Below, piece after piece: positions 1,524 to 13,696 of a stretch of 64,000 nucleotides of DNA (position 1 is the first letter of the stretch; the number at the start of each line of letters is the position of its first letter). A program made the position numbers and the translations under genes. The stretch is from Corynebacterium sp. (GTDB lineage: Bacteria; Actinomycetota; Actinomycetes; Mycobacteriales; Mycobacteriaceae). The notes under the pieces are model-generated. The model was given only the letters and a program-made list of their open reading frames with translations, made no database searches and was not told the DNA's origin. The stretch lies in assembly GCF_030532965.1 (NCBI RefSeq), contig NZ_JAUNKC010000014.1, positions 1 through 64,000 on the forward strand, written 5' to 3'.

Positions 1524-2432
1524 TTAACGTAAACGCCGACGGGCGAAACTGACCGCTATTACTCCGGCGGCAACGATAAGCTGCGTGGTGCGCGATAGCC
1601 GGACGGCGTCGTGGATCGTCGAAAAGCTAGGGCTTGGGCCCTGCCCTAATATTGGGCGCTGCTCTATTCCGTGTGCGTAAGCCGTGGGCCCGCCTAATTG
1701 CACCCCGAGGGCTGCGGCGGCGGTCGCCTCCACCGGGCCCGCGTTCGGACTTGGATGGTGCGGCGCGTCCTTAACCCACGCGCGAATGGCCGCCCGGAAC
1801 CGACCCTTCGTTGCAGCGATGGCAACGTGCGTGATGGCGGTTATCCGGGCGGGTATAAACGCCAACGCGTCATCGAGTGTCGCTGCGGCCCAGCCGAACT
1901 GGGCGTATTTGTCATTGCGGTAGCCAACCATCGCGTCCAGTGTGTTTACCGCCCGGTGCAATACCACCCCGGGTGCGCCGAAACTCGCCCACACCAGCGG
2001 CGCGATTGCCGCATCGGAGGTGTTCTCCGCCAGGGATTCGACCGCTGCCCGGGCCATGCCGGTTTCGTCTAATAGCTGAGGGGCACGCGAGCATAGCCAC
2101 GGCACCAGCGCCCGCGCTGCTTCATTGTCGCCGCGTTCCAGGGCCGCTGCCATGGCGGTTCCGATCCGTTCCAATGTTGTCCCACCCAAGGCCCAGTACA
2201 GCGCCACCGCAGTCGACGCCTGCGGCCACCGCCGGTGCGCAACGATCGACGCCGCCACGGGTGGCATGACGCAGCCTGCGACGTAGAAGATCCCGGCGCG
2301 CCGGTTCGGTTGGTACATGTGGGTTTCCAGCCAGCTGGCGTATTTGCCAAACAATGCCACTGGGTGCCATTTCCCCCCAGGGTCCCCCAAAAGCCGATCG
2401 GCGGCTATGCCTAGGAAAATTCCTAACGACAT
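1524..2432 (-). CDS. cobD: Adenosylcobinamide-phosphate synthase CobD/CbiB
   Basis: This integral membrane enzyme attaches the aminopropanol (phosphate) linker to adenosylcobyric acid in cobamide synthesis. The 302-residue protein has the family's N-terminal DRLLGDPGGKWHPVALFG and the central ENTSDAAIAPLVWAS and NTLDAMVGYRNDKY blocks. Several hydrophobic segments are visible. The ATG at 2432 is preferred over a TTG at 2441, because the AAAGG ribosome site then sits about nine bases upstream. The start lies 18 bases after tRNA-Val, so the two are probably transcribed together. No other corrin-ring genes lie next to it; bluB is in the window near 39.2 kb. Confidence 0.92.
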   Translation of the reverse strand: MSLGIFLGIAADRLLGDPGGKWHPVALFGKYASWLETHMYQPNRRAGIFYVAGCVMPPVAASIVAHRRWPQASTAVALYWALGGTTLERIGTAMAAALERGDNEAARALVPWLCSRAPQLLDETGMARAAVESLAENTSDAAIAPLVWASFGAPGVVLHRAVNTLDAMVGYRNDKYAQFGWAAATLDDALAFIPARITAITHVAIAATKGRFRAAIRAWVKDAPHHPSPNAGPVEATAAAALGVQLGGPTAYAHGIEQRPILGQGPSPSFSTIHDAVRLSRTTQLIVAAGVIAVSFARRRLR

Positions 2433-2449
2433 AGCCGCCAACCTTTCTG

Positions 2450-2522
2450 TGCGCCCTGACGGGCTCGAACCGCCGACCTGCTGGGTGTAAACCAGCTGCT
2501 CTCCCAGCTGAGCTAAAGGCGC
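2450..2522 (-). tRNA. tRNA-Val (anticodon TAC)
   Basis: The reverse strand folds as a full cloverleaf: acceptor GCGCCTT with AGGGCGC, D arm GCTC/GAGC, anticodon stem GCTGG/CCAGC around loop TTTACAC, and T arm with TTCGAGC. The anticodon TAC reads GTA/GTG valine codons. CCA is not encoded; the discriminator is A at 2450. cobD begins 18 bases downstream on the same strand with no terminator between them. Confidence 0.95.
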
Positions 2523-2620
2523 ATGTGATGCTTAACTGCATCGCTGGTAGATAGTAACAGCAAAATCAAGCAACACACAAAACGTAAGGTGAGAGCGGAT
2601 TTTTGCTTCTCGTAACCGGG

Positions 2621-3049
2621 TTACTTGTTTCCGCGTGGAACCAGGCAGCTGCCTTGCCAGTCGCCTAGGCGTTCTGCTTTGGTTTGCACCATTCCGGCCA
2701 ATTGTGCAGATTCGGCGATCTCACCCGGCGCTAGGGCATTGGGTTTTCCGGCGCCTGGGGTAAGCAGCCACACCACACCGTTGTCGGCAAGTGGGCGAAC
2801 TGCGTCTACGAGGCCGTCTACCAGGTCGCCGTCGTCAGCCCGCCACCAGAGCAGGACTACGTCGCAAATTTCGTCGGTGTCTTCGTCGAGAAGTTCCGAC
2901 CCGATGATGTCTTCAATTGCTTCGCTTAACGACGAATCGCAATCATCATCCCAACCAACTTCTTGAACCGAAATTCCGTCCTTGATGCCTAACCGGGCGG
3001 CGAGGGCGGACACGGTGTTCTTCTCCTTAGAATCTTGAACGTTCATCAA
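2621..3049 (-). CDS. DUF3052 family protein
   Basis: This acidic protein of about 142 residues matches the actinobacterial DUF3052 family that commonly sits divergently beside aceE. Recognisable blocks are AARLGIKDGISVQEVGWDDD near the start, CDVVLLWWRADDGDLVDGL in the middle and VVWLLTPGAGKPNALAPGEI near the end. Its role is not established. The divergent position suggests shared control with aceE through the interval of about 250 bases between the two start codons. The Met pair at the start leaves the exact first codon uncertain by one residue. Confidence 0.85.
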   Translation of the reverse strand: MMNVQDSKEKNTVSALAARLGIKDGISVQEVGWDDDCDSSLSEAIEDIIGSELLDEDTDEICDVVLLWWRADDGDLVDGLVDAVRPLADNGVVWLLTPGAGKPNALAPGEIAESAQLAGMVQTKAERLGDWQGSCLVPRGNK

Positions 3050-3297
3050 CGGCTAAGAATACAGGCAATCTGCCAGTTTCTCTCGTATAACACCAAAAAT
3101 TCTTCTCACATTTTCCGCTGTTTCCCCAGTTCGCCCCTCAAACTTCCCCTATGAGATACCCCGTAATTATATGCGTAAAGAGCAAAAAAGGACCGGCACA
3201 ACGTAAAGTAGAGGGGTATTGCCACATGAATAGCGCCACAAATGTGTATCACGTGGTTTTTCACCTAAAAATCAACTTACCCCTTTGGAGGTGTGGA

Positions 3298-6033
3298 ATG
3301 GCAGACCCGAACTTCGGGAAGCCCATCGAGGACACGAACTTTGCGCTCATCCGCGATGGTGTCGCGTCCTATCTCAACGACGCTGATCCGGAAGAAACCC
3401 ACGAGTGGATGGAATCCCTCGACGGGCTGCTGGAGCAATCCAGCCCAGATCGCGCCCGTTACCTCATGCTCCGCCTGTTGGAGCGCGCGTCGGCGAAGCG
3501 GGTTCCGCTGCCACCGATGACGTCCACCGATTACGTCAACACCATCCCCACCACGATGGAGCCGGAGTTCCCCGGCGACGAGGAAATTGAAAAGCGCTAC
3601 CGCCGGTGGATTCGGTGGAACGCCGCCATCATGGTGCACCGCGCTCAGCGTCCCGGCATTGGGGTGGGTGGGCACATTTCCACCTACGCTGGTGCTGCCC
3701 CACTGTACGAAGTTGGTTTCAACCACTTCTTCCGGGGTAAGGATCACCCCGGTGGTGGCGACCACATCTTCTTCCAGGGCCACGCCTCCCCTGGCGTGTA
3801 CGCACGTGCATTCATGGAAGGTCGGTTGACCGAGGATGATCTTGATGGTTTCCGTCAGGAAGTCTCCCGCCCGCAAGGCGGCCTGCCGTCCTATCCACAC
3901 CCGCATGGAAAGCCGGACTTCTGGGAATTCCCCACCGTATCCATGGGCTTGGGCCCGATGGATGCCATCTACCAGGCACGCTTCAACCGCTACCTGCACA
4001 ACCGTGGCATCAAAGACACCTCCGAACAGCACGTGTGGGCGTTCCTCGGTGACGGCGAAATGGACGAGCCGGAATCCCGCGGCTTGATTCAGATGGCTGC
4101 GCTGAACAACCTGGATAACCTCACCTTTGTTATCAACTGTAACTTGCAGCGTCTTGACGGCCCGGTTCGTGGTAACACCAAGATCATTCAGGAGCTGGAG
4201 TCCTTCTTCCGGGGTGCTGGCTGGTCGGTTATCAAGGTTGTGTGGGGCCGCGAATGGGATCAGCTGTTTGAGGCTGATAAGGACGGCGCTCTGGTTCACC
4301 TGATGAACACCACCCCCGACGGTGATTTCCAGACTTTCAAGGCCAACGATGGCGCATATGTCCGCGAGCACTTCTTCAACCGCGATCCACGCACCGCCAA
4401 GCTGGTGGAAGACTGGACCGACGAGGAGATTTGGAAGTTGCCGCGCGGTGGTCACGACTACCGCAAGATCTACGCCGCATACAAGCGCGCGTTGGAGATC
4501 AAGGACCGCCCAACCGTTATCCTCGCCCACACCATTAAGGGCTATGGTCTCGGCCATAACTTCGAGGGTCGGAACGCAACTCACCAGATGAAGAAGCTCA
4601 CGCTGGATGATTTGAAGCAGTTCCGCGACAAGCAGGGCATTCCGATTTCCGATGAGGAGCTGGAGAAGGACCCGTATCTGCCGCCGTACTACCACCCAGG
4701 TGAGGACTCTCCGGAGATCAAGTACCTCCAGGAGCGTCGCCGCGAACTCGGCGGCTACGTGCCGGAGCGCCGCGAGAGCTACACCCCAATTGAGGTTCCT
4801 GGTATCGACAAGCTCCGCAGCCTGCGTAAGGGTTCCGGCAAGCAGGAAGTCGCTACCACCATGGCTGTGGTGCGTGGCTTCAAGGAGCTCATGCGTGACA
4901 AGGAACTGGGCAAGCGCTTCGTTCCGATCATCCCCGACGAGGCCCGTACCTTCGGCATGGACTCGTGGTTCCCAACCATGGGTATTTACAACCCACACGG
5001 CCAGAACTACGTGCCGGTGGACCACGACTTGATGCTGTCCTACAAGGAGGCTGTCGACGGCCAGATCATGCACGAAGGTATCAACGAGGCGGGTTCCACC
5101 GCAGCGTTCATCGCCGCAGGTACGTCGTATGCGACCCACGGCGAGCCAATGATCCCGCTGTACATCTTCTATTCGATGTTCGGTTTCCAGCGCACCGGCG
5201 ATTCCTTCTGGGCAGCAGCCGACCAGATGGCACGTGGTTTCATCCTGGGCGCTACCGCTGGCCGCACCACCCTCACCGGTGAGGGCCTCCAGCACATGGA
5301 CGGCCATTCCCAAATCCTGGCGTCGACCAACCCAGCAGTTGTGTCCTACGACCCGGCGTTCGCCTACGAGATTGCGCACTTGCTGCATGAAGGCATCGAC
5401 CGCATGTACGGCCCTGGCCGCGGCGAGAACGTCATGTACTACCTGACCATCTACAATGAGCCGATTTCGCAACCTGCGGAGCCGGAGGATCTCGACGTTG
5501 CGGGTCTACACAAGGGTATTTACCTCTACGAGAAGGCCGAGGGTGGCGCGCACGAGGTTTCGTTGCTGGCGTCTGGTATCGGCATGCAGCAGGCACTGCG
5601 CGCCAAGCAGATGCTTGCCGACGAGTACAACGTCGCCGCAAACATCTTCTCCGTCACTTCCTGGGTTGAGCTGGCTCGCGAGGGCCAGGCTAAGGCGAAG
5701 GAACAGCTACGCCACCCTGAGCGCGAGGTTGAAGAAGCATTCGCTACCACCCAGCTGAAGAAGGCATCCGGCCCATACATCGCGGTTTCGGACTTCGCCA
5801 CCGATTTGCAAGAGCAGATCCGGGCATTCGTTCCTGGCGATTACACCACCTTGGGTGCTGACGGTTTCGGGTTCTCCGACACCCGGCCTGCCGCCCGCCG
5901 CTTCTTCAATATTGATGCGGAATCCGTGGTTGTTGCCGCGCTTAGTGCTCTCGCACGGGAAGGCAAGATTGATCGTTCCGTCGCAGCTGAAGCTGCACAG
6001 AAGTACAATCTGACCGACCCAACCAAGGTCTAA
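3298..6033 (+). CDS. aceE: Pyruvate dehydrogenase E1 component, homodimeric type
   Basis: This thiamine-diphosphate enzyme decarboxylates pyruvate and passes the acetyl group to the E2 lipoyl domains, feeding acetyl-CoA to the TCA cycle. The 911-residue protein carries the TPP motif [12 protein letters not shown] near residue 250 followed by [20 protein letters not shown]. The HxxxH-type N-terminal segment and the C-terminal transketolase-like domain are also present. The open frame extends upstream to 3151, but the ATG at 3298 has a strong GGAGGTG about six bases before it and gives the family's normal N-terminus (MADPNFGKP). A clear terminator follows the stop. Confidence 0.97.
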
Positions 6034-6048
6034 CGCTTAGCGCCACAC

Positions 6049-6087
6049 AAGGTGGGATAATCAGGACACTGGTTGTCCCACCTTTTT
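6049..6087 (+). terminator. Rho-independent terminator of aceE
   Basis: The hairpin AAGGTGGGA ... TCCCACCTT is followed directly by a T run and begins 16 bases after the aceE stop. A copy of the 11-base motif GCTTGTCGACG lies immediately after the T run at 6088-6098. Confidence 0.85.
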
Positions 6088-6098
6088 GCTTGTCGACG
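6088..6098 (-). repeat. Representative copy of the dispersed 11-base motif CGTCGACAAGC
   Basis: The exact motif occurs 12 times in this window. Plus-strand copies start at 6550, 8317, 24961, 26590, 46618, 61194 and 61825. Minus-strand copies start at 6088, 9722, 19490, 39848 and 48059. Chance predicts well under one. Variants differing only at positions 6-7 add about 23 more. Copies sit inside genes in several reading frames and also between genes. Confidence 0.85.
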
Positions 6099-6121
6099 CC
6101 ACGCCGTCGCCGCGAAAAACC

Positions 6122-6212
6122 GCTATCATTAAGGTTGTAATGCCGCCCGTTACGACGGGATAGGAAGACCACTTTGGGACCCCAGCCGGACGACTGGACC
6201 CAAGGTGGTCGC
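6122..6212 (+). ncRNA. Candidate structured RNA, copy A
   Basis: Two hairpins are visible. The first is CCCG (6146-6149) with CGGG (6156-6159) around loop TTACGA. The second is a 12-pair stem, 6167-6178 with 6199-6210, that encloses an inner hairpin CCAG/CTGG with loop CCGGACGA. A second copy at 6880-6963 keeps every loop base but changes five base pairs on both sides, which is strong evidence for selection on RNA structure. A TATCAT that could serve as a -10 element starts at 6124. The element ends 27 bases before the start codon of the gene at 6238, so it could be a 5' leader regulator or a separate small RNA. It does not match any RNA class I know. Confidence 0.6.
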
Positions 6213-6237
6213 TTTCATTGTCGTTTGAGGAGAAGCC

Positions 6238-6686
6238 ATGGATCGCCCGCACTCCCCCCGATACGATTGTCGCGGAAGAATACGATTTCAGCCGACTCAT
6301 CAGTTGCCACTGTGCGAATAGCGGTTCTGAACTCAATTTTTTGGTGTCGTTTTTGGGAACAGCGCGTCGATCCAACAGACGAATTCGATGAACTTTATTG
6401 GCATGAAACCGGCTTTATCCTGCGCGGCGTAACAGATGCCCTTACGGCTATCGCCTGGGAAAAAGAACACGCCGCCGGACGGCATTCAGCCACTTTCGTC
6501 CTTATACCAGCAGATCCTTATCCACTAATCGAGGACGAAACATTAGAAACGTCGACAAGCGGCACCCCACCACAACGCGACCAGGCGATCCACATACACA
6601 GCACAATTCCCGACGGGCGGATCCTCAACGATTCTAATTTCTTCGAATTTTGCATGTATGCAGATCCGGAAGCCTTGGAATCTTAA
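6238..6686 (+). pseudogene. Unknown gene broken by two homopolymer frameshifts
   Basis: A good ribosome site (GAGGAG) precedes ATG 6238, but that frame stops after about 26 codons. Removing one base from the C6 run at about 6254-6259 continues the frame as PDTIVAEEYDFSRLISCHC. Removing one T from the T5 run near 6350 joins it to EQRVDPTDEFDELYWHETGF and on to the stop at 6684-6686. The rebuilt protein has about 148 acidic residues and ends FEFCMYADPEALES. The family is not recognised. Both shifts are single extra bases in homopolymers, so sequencing error, phase variation or true decay are all possible. Confidence 0.5.
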
Positions 6687-6856
6687 CGTTAGTGCTGTAG
6701 TAGCCCACGTCGGATCACATTGATGCATTTCTGTTTCGTAAACTATTCTGGTCGCAGAAGCTCTTTAATCTGAAATCTGTACAGACATTCAAAAGTAATG
6801 CCCGGCGAACCGCTTGCACCCGCTCTAAGTAAAGAAGATAACACTCATTTTAGTTG

Positions 6857-6885
6857 TTGCTAAAAGACAGAAAAGCAGTTATCAT
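6857..6885 (+). promoter_or_regulatory. Possible promoter of structured RNA copy B
   Basis: TTGCTA at 6857-6862 and TATCAT at 6880-6885 are separated by exactly 17 bases, a normal sigma-70-like spacing. The predicted transcript would begin close to the conserved ATAATGCCGCC that opens the RNA element. Copy A keeps the TATCAT but has no good -35 match. Confidence 0.4.
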
Positions 6886-6965
6886 GATCATAATGCCGCC
6901 TGTTACGATAGGAGTGGAAGACCGCATTAGAACCCCAGCCGGACGACTGGATCTAGTGCGGTCGT
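6880..6965 (+). ncRNA. Candidate structured RNA, copy B
   Basis: This is the second copy of the element at 6122. The first hairpin is CCTG (6899-6902) with TAGG (6909-6912) around TTACGA. The second is a 12-pair stem, 6920-6931 with 6952-6963, around the same inner hairpin CCAG-CCGGACGA-CTGG. Relative to copy A, the long stem has four two-sided compensatory pair changes and one wobble change. The short stem has one of each. No convincing plus-strand gene follows it, so this copy may be a stand-alone RNA or a remnant. Confidence 0.6.
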
Positions 6966-7047
6966 ACTTATTTCCCATACAATAACTTTTCAACAGCGGT
7001 CACATTATTACCACCTATCAAATCACCGCCTCATAATAAAATTGTTA

Positions 7048-7592
7048 CTTACTTGCTGCTAGGTGTGTTTTCTTCGACAAGTACCCTGTCCCTATCCCGG
7101 AATTTGAGAATATAGTCTTGATTTCCGTTACGATCGGCATTCACCGCCTCTCTTATGTTCTATATGCAATCCGACATAGCTGCCACGTTGTTGAAGATGG
7201 ACTATGTGTCTTTTATCCTCTCGATCTTGAACTACCGAACGTGATTCCAGAATGAGATTGGTCACACCGTAATCAGTCAAATAGCTGTAGAGGAGCTTCA
7301 GGCATTCTTTACGAAAACGTTCTGTCTTATTTTGTGGGCTAGCTTTATGCGAGACCACGAACAAGATAGATTCAATACCAGAAACAAGTTCTACAATCTT
7401 TCGTCTACGTGATTCTTTTTCATCGGTCCAATGAAGTTTGATCTGCCCAGGTTCCTTCAAGGTCGATAATTCTGCCCTGATTTCTTCGGCGGCATCGGAA
7501 GCGATTAGAGCAGCACACATGAGATATTCCTGCTCAGTTCCGCTTCGCTTTACAGAAGATTCGTCAGCAAACGCGCAGTAGAGACCAGCCAT
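7048..7592 (-). pseudogene. DUF3800-like protein, frameshifted near the 3' end
   Basis: The N-terminal part (YCAFADESSVK, then YLMCAALIAS and WTDEKESRRRKIVELV) resembles DUF3800, an RNase H-like fold family often found in defence and accessory regions. The intact frame ends at 7128 after HIEHKRGGECRS, where the family should have its conserved AD motif. In the neighbouring frame the sequence reads NNVAAMSDCI, then a stop codon, then NIREAVNADRNGNQDY up to a stop at 7048, which restores the expected C-terminal pattern. One frameshift near 7190 and one in-frame stop therefore appear to have disabled the gene. The family assignment is moderate. Confidence 0.5.
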
Positions 7593-7650
7593 AAAATTAC
7601 TTTAACCAAATAAAGATCCTGCGTTTGCCACTTCGACTCAAAAGTGCTTT

Positions 7651-7929
7651 TCAATACGACGATTCTTCTAACCGGCATTCCCCCGCAACGAGCATGTGCT
7701 TGTTAACTGGGCAGAAACACGACTCGTACCAGCCGTAATGCGGATCATTATCGACCGCAAACTTAACGCTTCCGGCTACTCGTTTTCCGGCCGAGAAGTC
7801 TTTCTCCAAGGACCCGAAAACGGAACCGTGGGCGGGCCAATCCGCTTGGTAAGGCCCGTCTGAAAAGCTGTTTCCTGCTTGCAATTCTGCGCTAAGCACC
7901 CGTTGCAGTTCCGGGCAAAACTGAGCCAT
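7651..7929 (-). CDS. Small hypothetical protein
   Basis: This is a 92-residue soluble protein with no signal peptide or membrane helix. It opens MAQFCPELQRVLSAEL and contains the tryptophan- and cysteine-bearing stretch GWYESCFCPVNKHMLVAGE near its end. A ribosome site AAGGAT lies seven bases before the ATG, which supports a real gene. The family is not recognised. Neighbours are accessory-type genes. Confidence 0.65.
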   Translation of the reverse strand: MAQFCPELQRVLSAELQAGNSFSDGPYQADWPAHGSVFGSLEKDFSAGKRVAGSVKFAVDNDPHYGWYESCFCPVNKHMLVAGECRLEESSY

Positions 7930-8020
7930 GAGGGTTATCCTTCTTCCCGTTTTTAGCAGCTACGTGGCACCATGCGCCAACGCGACGTCACTGCCCGTTG
8001 GCCGCCGTGGTATCTGGTGG

Positions 8021-12931: not shown

Positions 12932-13696
12932 TCATCGGGTGTCGCAACGATGCGCCCGGATCATGGCGATCCGCTGGCGCTCCCCACCGGATACCCCGCT
13001 ATTGGCGGCCCCGACCTCCCGCCGCAATCCGGACTGACTCGCAAAGTCGGATAAGCCACACTGCCGCAGCAACTCAATTAGTTCAGAATCGGTTGGTGGC
13101 TCCGCAACTCCAAGTAAGAGGTTTTCTTTTAGGGTTCCGGGCAAAAGATTCGGTTCTTGTTCCACGTAGGCCACGGTGCCGCGCAAGTCAAACAGTGACT
13201 GGTCTGCGATGGTGGCGCCGTCGACAAGTATGGTGCCGGAGGTAGGTTCATAGAACCTAAGCAGCAAGGACAACATCGTGCTTTTGCCGGACCCAGATGG
13301 CCCCGTTAATGCGACTTTCTCCCCGGCACGCACATCAAAGCTCACGATGGTCGTGTCGCTGCTAATCCGGGTAACGAAACCACCAGCGCCGCGTTTTTCG
13401 TATTTAGCGACGGTCAGCGCCATCAAGTGGCGGCTGAGCTTCCGTCGCAATTCCCGCACAGCTTTATCCGCCGCCAACGACGAAACAAACATCGTGAGCC
13501 CGCTGAGTATTGCGCCCCCGACCAGAACACCGAGCAGCTTTATCAGCGGTGCTGTGATCCCACCGCTACCAGCGGCGGTGAGAAGCGTCCCAACATAAGC
13601 AGGTTGCAAAAGCGTGACCGCTGTCGTCAACAGCGAAAATACAACCGCAAGTGCAATGAGTTTGCGGTTGGTTTTAATAAGAAATGCGAAATTCAA
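12932..13696 (-). pseudogene. ABC exporter gutted by an internal deletion and cut at the 3' end
   Basis: The frame begins like a normal fused ABC exporter: a basic start, two membrane helices, then LRRKLSRHLMALTVAKYEKRG and FVTRISSDTT. The sequence jumps directly from there to SFDVRAGEKVALTGPSGSGKST, the start of the ATPase domain. About 170-200 residues that should hold the remaining membrane helices are therefore missing. The ATPase ends right after SGGERQRIAMIRA, without Walker B. The frame is still open, so the deletion is in frame, but the product cannot work as a transporter. A TTG start at 13696 has GGGAG upstream. The partner half-transporter is not in the window. Confidence 0.8.

Follow-up and report, generated by a model that had tools for sequence, protein, structure and literature searches.

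RNA motifs associated with genes of the DUF3800 family, including ones beyond those named here, were reportedly discovered by Weinberg et al. in 2017. Excerpts of one report list two such motifs in Rfam, DUF3800-I (RF02969) and DUF3800-IX (RF02968) (PMC11701678), while excerpts of another tie DUF3800 to putative noncoding RNAs (PMC10910872); the portions of the DUF3800 literature sampled assign no function to these RNA motifs. A second point of comparison is AbiF-RCd22, in which, according to the sampled part of its description, a hairpin RNA (the abiF motif, RF03085) neutralizes an adjoining toxic protein by direct binding and tolerates compensatory swaps in its stem (PMC12373285). Here we describe a family of two-hairpin RNAs, about 75 to 80 nt long, found in two copies in a 64-kb stretch of Corynebacterium sp. 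DNA (contig NZ_JAUNKC010000014.1, positions 1 to 64,000; hereafter the window, meaning the whole stretch analyzed). At many loci in Corynebacterium the RNA points toward the 3′ end of a gene of about 190 codons; the product is a divergent member of DUF3800, predicted to fold like RNase HII. We regard the pairing of RNA and gene as near certain.

Both hairpin copies lie where a sequence-only reading of the window had placed them, compensatory changes included. Copy A (6137 to 6212, plus strand) is an orphan, with no directly adjoining partner gene; a −10-like TATCAT (6124 to 6129, plus strand) begins 13 nt before the model start at 6137. On the same strand follow a short hairpin, P1 (6146 to 6159, CCCG-TTACGA-CGGG), and a long hairpin, P2 (6167 to 6210), whose 12-bp stem encloses an inner CCAG-CCGGACGA-CTGG. 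Copy B (6890 to 6965, plus strand) carries its P2 at 6920 to 6963 (plus strand), as read from the sequence and the covariation alignment, and is preceded by a promoter-like TTGCTA-17-TATCAT (6857 to 6885, plus strand), the TATCAT of which begins at the offset most frequent in the family, 10 nt ahead of the model start. Between the two P2 stems (6167 to 6178 with 6199 to 6210 versus 6920 to 6931 with 6952 to 6963) five pairs differ, four on both sides and one on one side. The P1 stems differ by the two-sided change already noted in the sequence-only reading and by a one-sided change besides, and the TTACGA and CCGGACGA loops, like the CCAG and CTGG arms of the inner hairpin, are the same in both copies. 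A first covariance model (R1) matched copy A at 6137 to 6216 (99.3 bits, E 4.3e-19) and copy B at 6890 to 6969 (90.1 bits, E 5.1e-17); a model of the long hairpin (R2), made from 62 diverse sequences, scored them at 63.9 and 58.1 bits, respectively. Folding energy z-scores were −4.2 for copy A and −3.2 for copy B. No third copy was found in this genome, where R1 gave nothing further better than E 5 and R2 nothing further at E ≤ 1.

The fold is supported by covariation well beyond these two copies. RNAalifold recovered it from an alignment of 28 homologues (A2), from which five BLAST loci (L003, L004, L030, L031, and L032), weak and by eye not this RNA, had been dropped beforehand; two ragged alignments, A3 and A5, were excluded from all counts. 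Two-sided changes occurred in 13 of the 22 pairs, against an average of 6.9 in shuffled alignments, and the covariation score was reached by none of 500 shuffles. All 12 pairs of the P2 stem had two-sided changes, and P1 pairing was kept in 99% of cells. Covariation was also strong in a set of 60 distinct sequences, in which one inner-stem pair appears as CG (25 sequences), UA (18), or AU (17). The element conserved in this way consists of P1, which reads CCYG-TTACGA-YRGG in most Corynebacterium copies and is more varied elsewhere, and P2, whose 12-bp stem has a bulge and an inner hairpin of 4 bp; the loop of that hairpin reads CCGGACGA in 42 of the 60 sequences, and three of its positions are invariant across them. 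A repeat conserved only as DNA was rejected as an explanation, the changes being both compensatory and strand biased, and the claim of a conserved RNA fold stands.

Since G-U cells outnumber A-C cells (101 versus 12 in the 60 sequences, 58 versus 12 without one U-G-rich pair, and 31 versus 12 in the 28), the folding strand is the one read from the −10-like box. A TAnnnT motif begins 8 to 18 nt upstream of the model start in 59 of 78 copies, with 10 nt the commonest offset, while 15 control windows gave counts of 0 to 5. From these patterns we predict that the RNA is transcribed from its own promoter. In C. minutissimum and C. macginleyi (L099, L100, L103, and L110), a variable number of GGTGCCAAAT-like tandem decamers lies directly 5′ of the −10-like box.

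The linkage between RNA and gene was recovered from both directions. Among the best 80 of 183 loci gathered by protein alignment (A4) without use of the RNA, R2 matched 79 at E ≤ 0.05, 77 of them convergent with the gene and within 250 nt, and R1 placed a convergent RNA at 73 (matches up to E 10 allowed). Sequences from 42 of the 80 had been used to build R2; 37 of the other 38 match, some being near-identical to training sequences. A convergent gene was likewise present at 8 of the 12 loci outside the genus that R1 had found by RNA alone. Seven protein-first loci have two to five RNA copies: L171 has five around one gene (2149 to 3620), four of which form close pairs at a spacing of about 20 nt, and L149, L162, L153, L160, L167, and L172 have two or three each. 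Within the genus, close relatives of the gene (E < 1e-20, plus a fragment beside the RNA in G046) occur in 26 genomes, all of which are among the 50 RNA-positive genomes; the remaining same-genus protein matches are longer, ordinary DUF3800 genes or fragments. R2 had no match at E ≤ 10 at ten ordinary DUF3800 loci, and the RNA therefore goes with the divergent branch rather than with DUF3800 as a whole. In 33 loci the distances between RNAs correlate with those between proteins (r 0.70), as expected of a pair travelling together, a correlation that linkage alone would also produce. The genome under study also has an ordinary, longer DUF3800 gene on another contig (C50, 12762 to 13409; E 7.9e-17, open frame of 322), with no such RNA in the part of its flank that was retrieved.

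In the 72 loci measured, a median of 1 nt separates the stop codon from the end of the RNA, and read-through of the hairpin would make the two transcripts overlap. Gram-positive type I toxin-antitoxin systems are also arranged tail to tail. The convergent RNA might accordingly be a type I-like antisense transcript that base-pairs with the mRNA of the gene at its 3′ end and thereby blocks it. We consider this improbable: antisense pairing requires neither loop conservation nor compensatory changes in the stem, and this RNA shows both strongly; gene-less copies of the RNA stay folded; and at two loci (L132 and the plasmid locus L223) the RNA lies on the gene's own strand.

The partner protein, of about 190 residues, is a distant member of its family. 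Pfam PF12686 (DUF3800) matched 18 of 59 members at E ≤ 0.1 (best 0.00039), and one locus protein, at 21 bits, equals the Pfam gathering cutoff, the branch lying mostly below it; some relatives are labelled DUF3800 in their source annotation. Its predicted structure shows the RNase H-like fold expected of DUF3800, and the best solved structural matches are RNase HII and RNase H2, at about 6 to 14% identity among the matches listed. A first AlphaFold 2 model, made without an alignment, had a confidence (pLDDT) of 34 and was not used. The first strand bears a DE motif, which we take to be the RNase HII catalytic motif. Weak PADLOC matches were to the candidate PDC-M04A (6 of 59 members, best E 0.0003) and to RT-DUF3800_VII-A1 models (3 and 2 members, best 0.013). 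None of the 16 Pfam families that match any of the 59 partners at E ≤ 0.1 is a reverse transcriptase, a result confined to the partners themselves, as neighboring genes were not searched for one.

The main rival to an inhibitory role is that the RNA is an essential cofactor or a guide of the nuclease in a small RNA-protein complex, for instance one acting against phages. The near-obligate pairing and the codivergence would suit such a complex, and in the sampled parts of two reports DUF3800 is described as adopting an RNase H fold, occurring in certain CRISPR-Cas type V and VI loci, and being linked to noncoding RNA (PMC10910872, PMC12669027). The PADLOC matches also count for it, while fitting an antidote as well. 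However, conservation extends through the whole RNA with no variable segment evident that could serve as a guide, and well-folded RNAs beside broken or missing genes would be unexpected of an inert cofactor. On balance we consider a cofactor or guide role unlikely, though it deserves to be weighed ahead of the other alternatives.

The state of the gene beside the RNA was scored for 74 RNA-first entries. Second loci of the same place were left out, the two window copies were treated as one entry, and seven first-look hits were excluded because R2 was absent (L077, L094, and L096), partial (L184 and L188), or short (L185 and L186); none of the seven has the partner gene. The convergent gene is uninterrupted over at least 150 positions of the hidden Markov model (HMM) of RNA-linked proteins in 27 entries and broken in 16 (11 scored by script and 5 more split near the N terminus); one entry is a second tandem copy behind a gene. 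In the remaining 30 the 3′ flank that was fetched, 0.9 to 3.6 kb long, holds no gene, and counting the seven weak hits gives 37 gene-less entries of 81; L018 and L062 are among the gene-less, an earlier HMM having given a weak 30-residue piece and a later one none. In A2, RNAs keep on average 21.6 of the 22 pairs beside broken genes (n = 7), 21.6 beside intact genes (n = 10), and 20.6 as orphans (n = 11), a pattern in which the orphan RNAs may be slowly decaying. At four gene-less loci (L010, L014, L068, and L073) the RNA immediately adjoins the 3′ end of convergent open reading frames (ORFs) unrelated to the partner, by eye a response regulator, a helicase, a TetR-like regulator, and an ABC-F-like ATPase, which the hairpin may serve as a terminator.

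Plasmids carry the pair as well. The protein matched 79 plasmid records, 64 of them with at least 80% coverage, from Clavibacter, Rhodococcus, Mycobacterium, Arthrobacter, and others; the RNA was present in all six plasmid loci fetched, five in convergent orientation, and two of the six are near parA. No relative of this protein branch was confirmed in phage records and viral contigs.

We propose that the RNA binds and restrains a toxin-like nuclease, much as an RNA antitoxin does, and we consider the case for this to be evenly balanced. The two-hairpin RNA, predicted to be transcribed from its own promoter and usually encoded tail to tail with the putative nuclease gene, would bind the partner protein through the conserved CCGGACGA and TTACGA loops and hold its predicted nuclease activity in check; the protein would be toxic, and the RNA would neutralize it. 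We favor this reading because the gene is frequently disrupted next to an RNA that keeps its fold, because the gene rarely stands without the RNA and the pairs ride on plasmids, and because the abiF motif RNA, in the excerpts of its description, neutralizes a toxic protein by direct contact (PMC12373285).

Several observations weigh against restraint of a toxin. One open, intact gene (L152, the sole such case among the 80) has no RNA, and three genomes (G212, G078, and G031) contain broken DUF3800-like pieces with none in the 3 to 5 kb retrieved, except for one 9-bit partial match. To the same-strand RNAs of L132 and L223 can be added L172, whose two copies lie only 5′ of the gene. The gene-less entries are numerous, and the pairs that their RNAs retain may point to a use of the RNA on its own; a −10-like box was seen in 14 of the 22 orphan or window copies examined. 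The predicted nuclease activity depends on the presumed RNase HII motif, and the layout is unlike that of known type III systems.

In the window itself, the gene convergent with copy B is a C-truncated, divergent DUF3800-like ORF (7592 to 7128, minus strand). The promoter-like sequence assigned to copy B by the sequence-only reading stands; the statement that no gene follows the RNA does not. The ORF matches positions 8 to 154 of 194 of the HMM of RNA-linked proteins (E 8e-45), with no further piece at E ≤ 1e-3, and lacks the family-invariant P156, L158, and D162 as judged from alignment to L097. Truncated as it is, this putative nuclease gene is likely dead, which would leave copies A and B as remnants or as RNAs that still protect. 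Where the ORF ends, the sequence GTTACGATCGG (7127 to 7137) resembles the P1 loop region of copy B, GTTACGATAGG (6902 to 6912).

Copy B and the partner gene lie together in a stretch of 984 bp (6680 to 7663, no strand assigned) that is absent from a near relative, G026, in which copy A stays; window positions 4619 to 6679 align to 2 to 2060 of the G026 locus and 7664 to 7942 to 2078 to 2357. The difference may be a gain in the window or a loss in G026. Presence or absence of this kind, together with gene-less copies beside unrelated genes, up to five copies per locus, and three copies 98 to 99% alike in C. minutissimum 1941 (G101), would fit hairpins that are DNA-level elements moved by an RNase H-fold, transposase-like protein, with the orphans as nonautonomous copies. 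An 11-nt inverted pair (6870 to 6880 and 7642 to 7652, 91%) encloses copy B and the gene, but a pair this short could be due to chance, and its left arm lies 190 bases in from the left edge of the stretch; no repeat was found at both edges of 6680 to 7663, this pair lying inside only. C. minutissimum-type copies share a left edge and vary at the right, and the fixed −10-like box and G-U strand bias indicate a transcript. We therefore think mobility at the DNA level quite improbable.

Copy A had also been read as a leader regulator ending 27 bases before a ribosome site. In fact a Shine-Dalgarno-like GAGGAG follows copy A after 14 nt and the ATG at 6238 after 25 nt, and the evidence does not support a leader of the riboswitch type. 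Control of the gene at 6238 by copy A would agree with the spacing of about 25 nt before a start codon both here and in G026, and with the 1 difference in 91 bases of copy A, against 4 in 88 of the preceding spacer, between the two genomes, numbers too few to prove constraint. The frame at 6238 to 6686 is broken in the window by five stops, and no Pfam family reaches its cutoff there; in G026 the same ATG opens a 148-residue frame. Of the 30 gene-less copies, 28 were checked, and a Shine-Dalgarno sequence with an ORF follows within 220 nt on the same strand in four, two of which (L018 and L062) share one gene while the remaining genes differ; the gene at 6238 recurs at none but that of G026. 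Set beside the convergent arrangement of the family, these results make control of that gene by copy A as a 5′ leader highly improbable. Elsewhere in the window, an ABC (ATP-binding cassette) transporter-like ORF (12932 to 13696) seems by eye to lack the middle of its membrane domain.

The RNA recurs in the genus and is sparse beyond it. With copy A as query, BLAST at E ≤ 0.1 gave matches in 29 of the 151 genomes of the genus searched, three of which (L030 to L032) are the weak ones mentioned above. R1 matched at 57 sites, spread over 50 of the 242 genomes of the genus, this one included, and in 11 of 298 genomes (9 of 76 genera) in the order; R2 found 12 of 346 genomes in the phylum Actinomycetota at E ≤ 0.001, four of the twelve being partial or short matches. 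The search that the sequence-only reading had called for thus yielded further covarying homologues and no Rfam family. Rfam scans placed no family over the RNA in the window (6050 to 7050), at 17 loci (E ≤ 5), or at 10 loci (E ≤ 1), and none of the DUF3800 families of Rfam matched in the same three sets (E ≤ 10, 5, and 1, respectively). RF02969, run against 119 genomes of the phylum, gave zero matches, as it did in the controls, and is uninformative. No description of this RNA was found in the open-access literature, as represented mostly by titles and without supplements. By these sequence comparisons the family is large and has no match among the Rfam models tested, and with its strong covariation and promoter-like box it bears out the proposal of an undescribed structured RNA. 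One locus, L112, has an Rfam match at 150 to 221 to the actinobacterial small RNA Ms_AS-8 (RF02466, 64.9 bits), which is unrelated to this family.

In type III toxin-antitoxin systems, RNA repeats lie upstream of the toxin gene in one operon. AbiF-RCd22 and the type III systems share with the present family a conserved hairpin RNA beside a toxic protein, a likeness that on this side is predicted. They differ in that their RNA is upstream of the gene, whereas here the RNA is convergent in 77 of 80 loci, a −10-like box of its own precedes it in 59 of 78 copies, and the fold predicted for the protein is RNase HII-like. Retrons, too, are RNA-dependent systems, and retron type VII-A1 (RT-DUF3800) has the DUF3800 part in common with our partners, as the weak PADLOC matches reflect; it includes a reverse transcriptase, whereas the partners of about 190 residues have none fused to them, a contrast drawn without a search of their neighbors. 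RNase HII and RNase H2 share with the partner the fold, predicted here, and presumably the first-strand DE motif, but at low identity, and the partner is patchy in distribution and linked to an RNA. We put forward, tentatively and at somewhat less than an even chance, a new class in which an RNase HII-fold DUF3800 nuclease is restrained by a convergent RNA on actinobacterial chromosomes and plasmids, with orphan RNAs as antidotes. The RNA-protein pair is compact and recurrent, its protein model is confident, its loops are clearly conserved, it occurs in intact, broken, and orphan forms, and plasmids carry it; whether the RNA restrains, arms, or guides the protein can therefore be tested directly with two components. 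Judged by sequence, the closest known kind is the DUF3800-associated RNAs of Rfam: in common is a structured RNA adjoining a DUF3800-family gene (79 of 80 protein-first loci), while the RNA here matches no such model and its partner is a divergent branch mostly under the Pfam cutoff, a comparison that does not extend to the layouts. If our proposal is true, it would provide the first function for DUF3800-associated RNA motifs.
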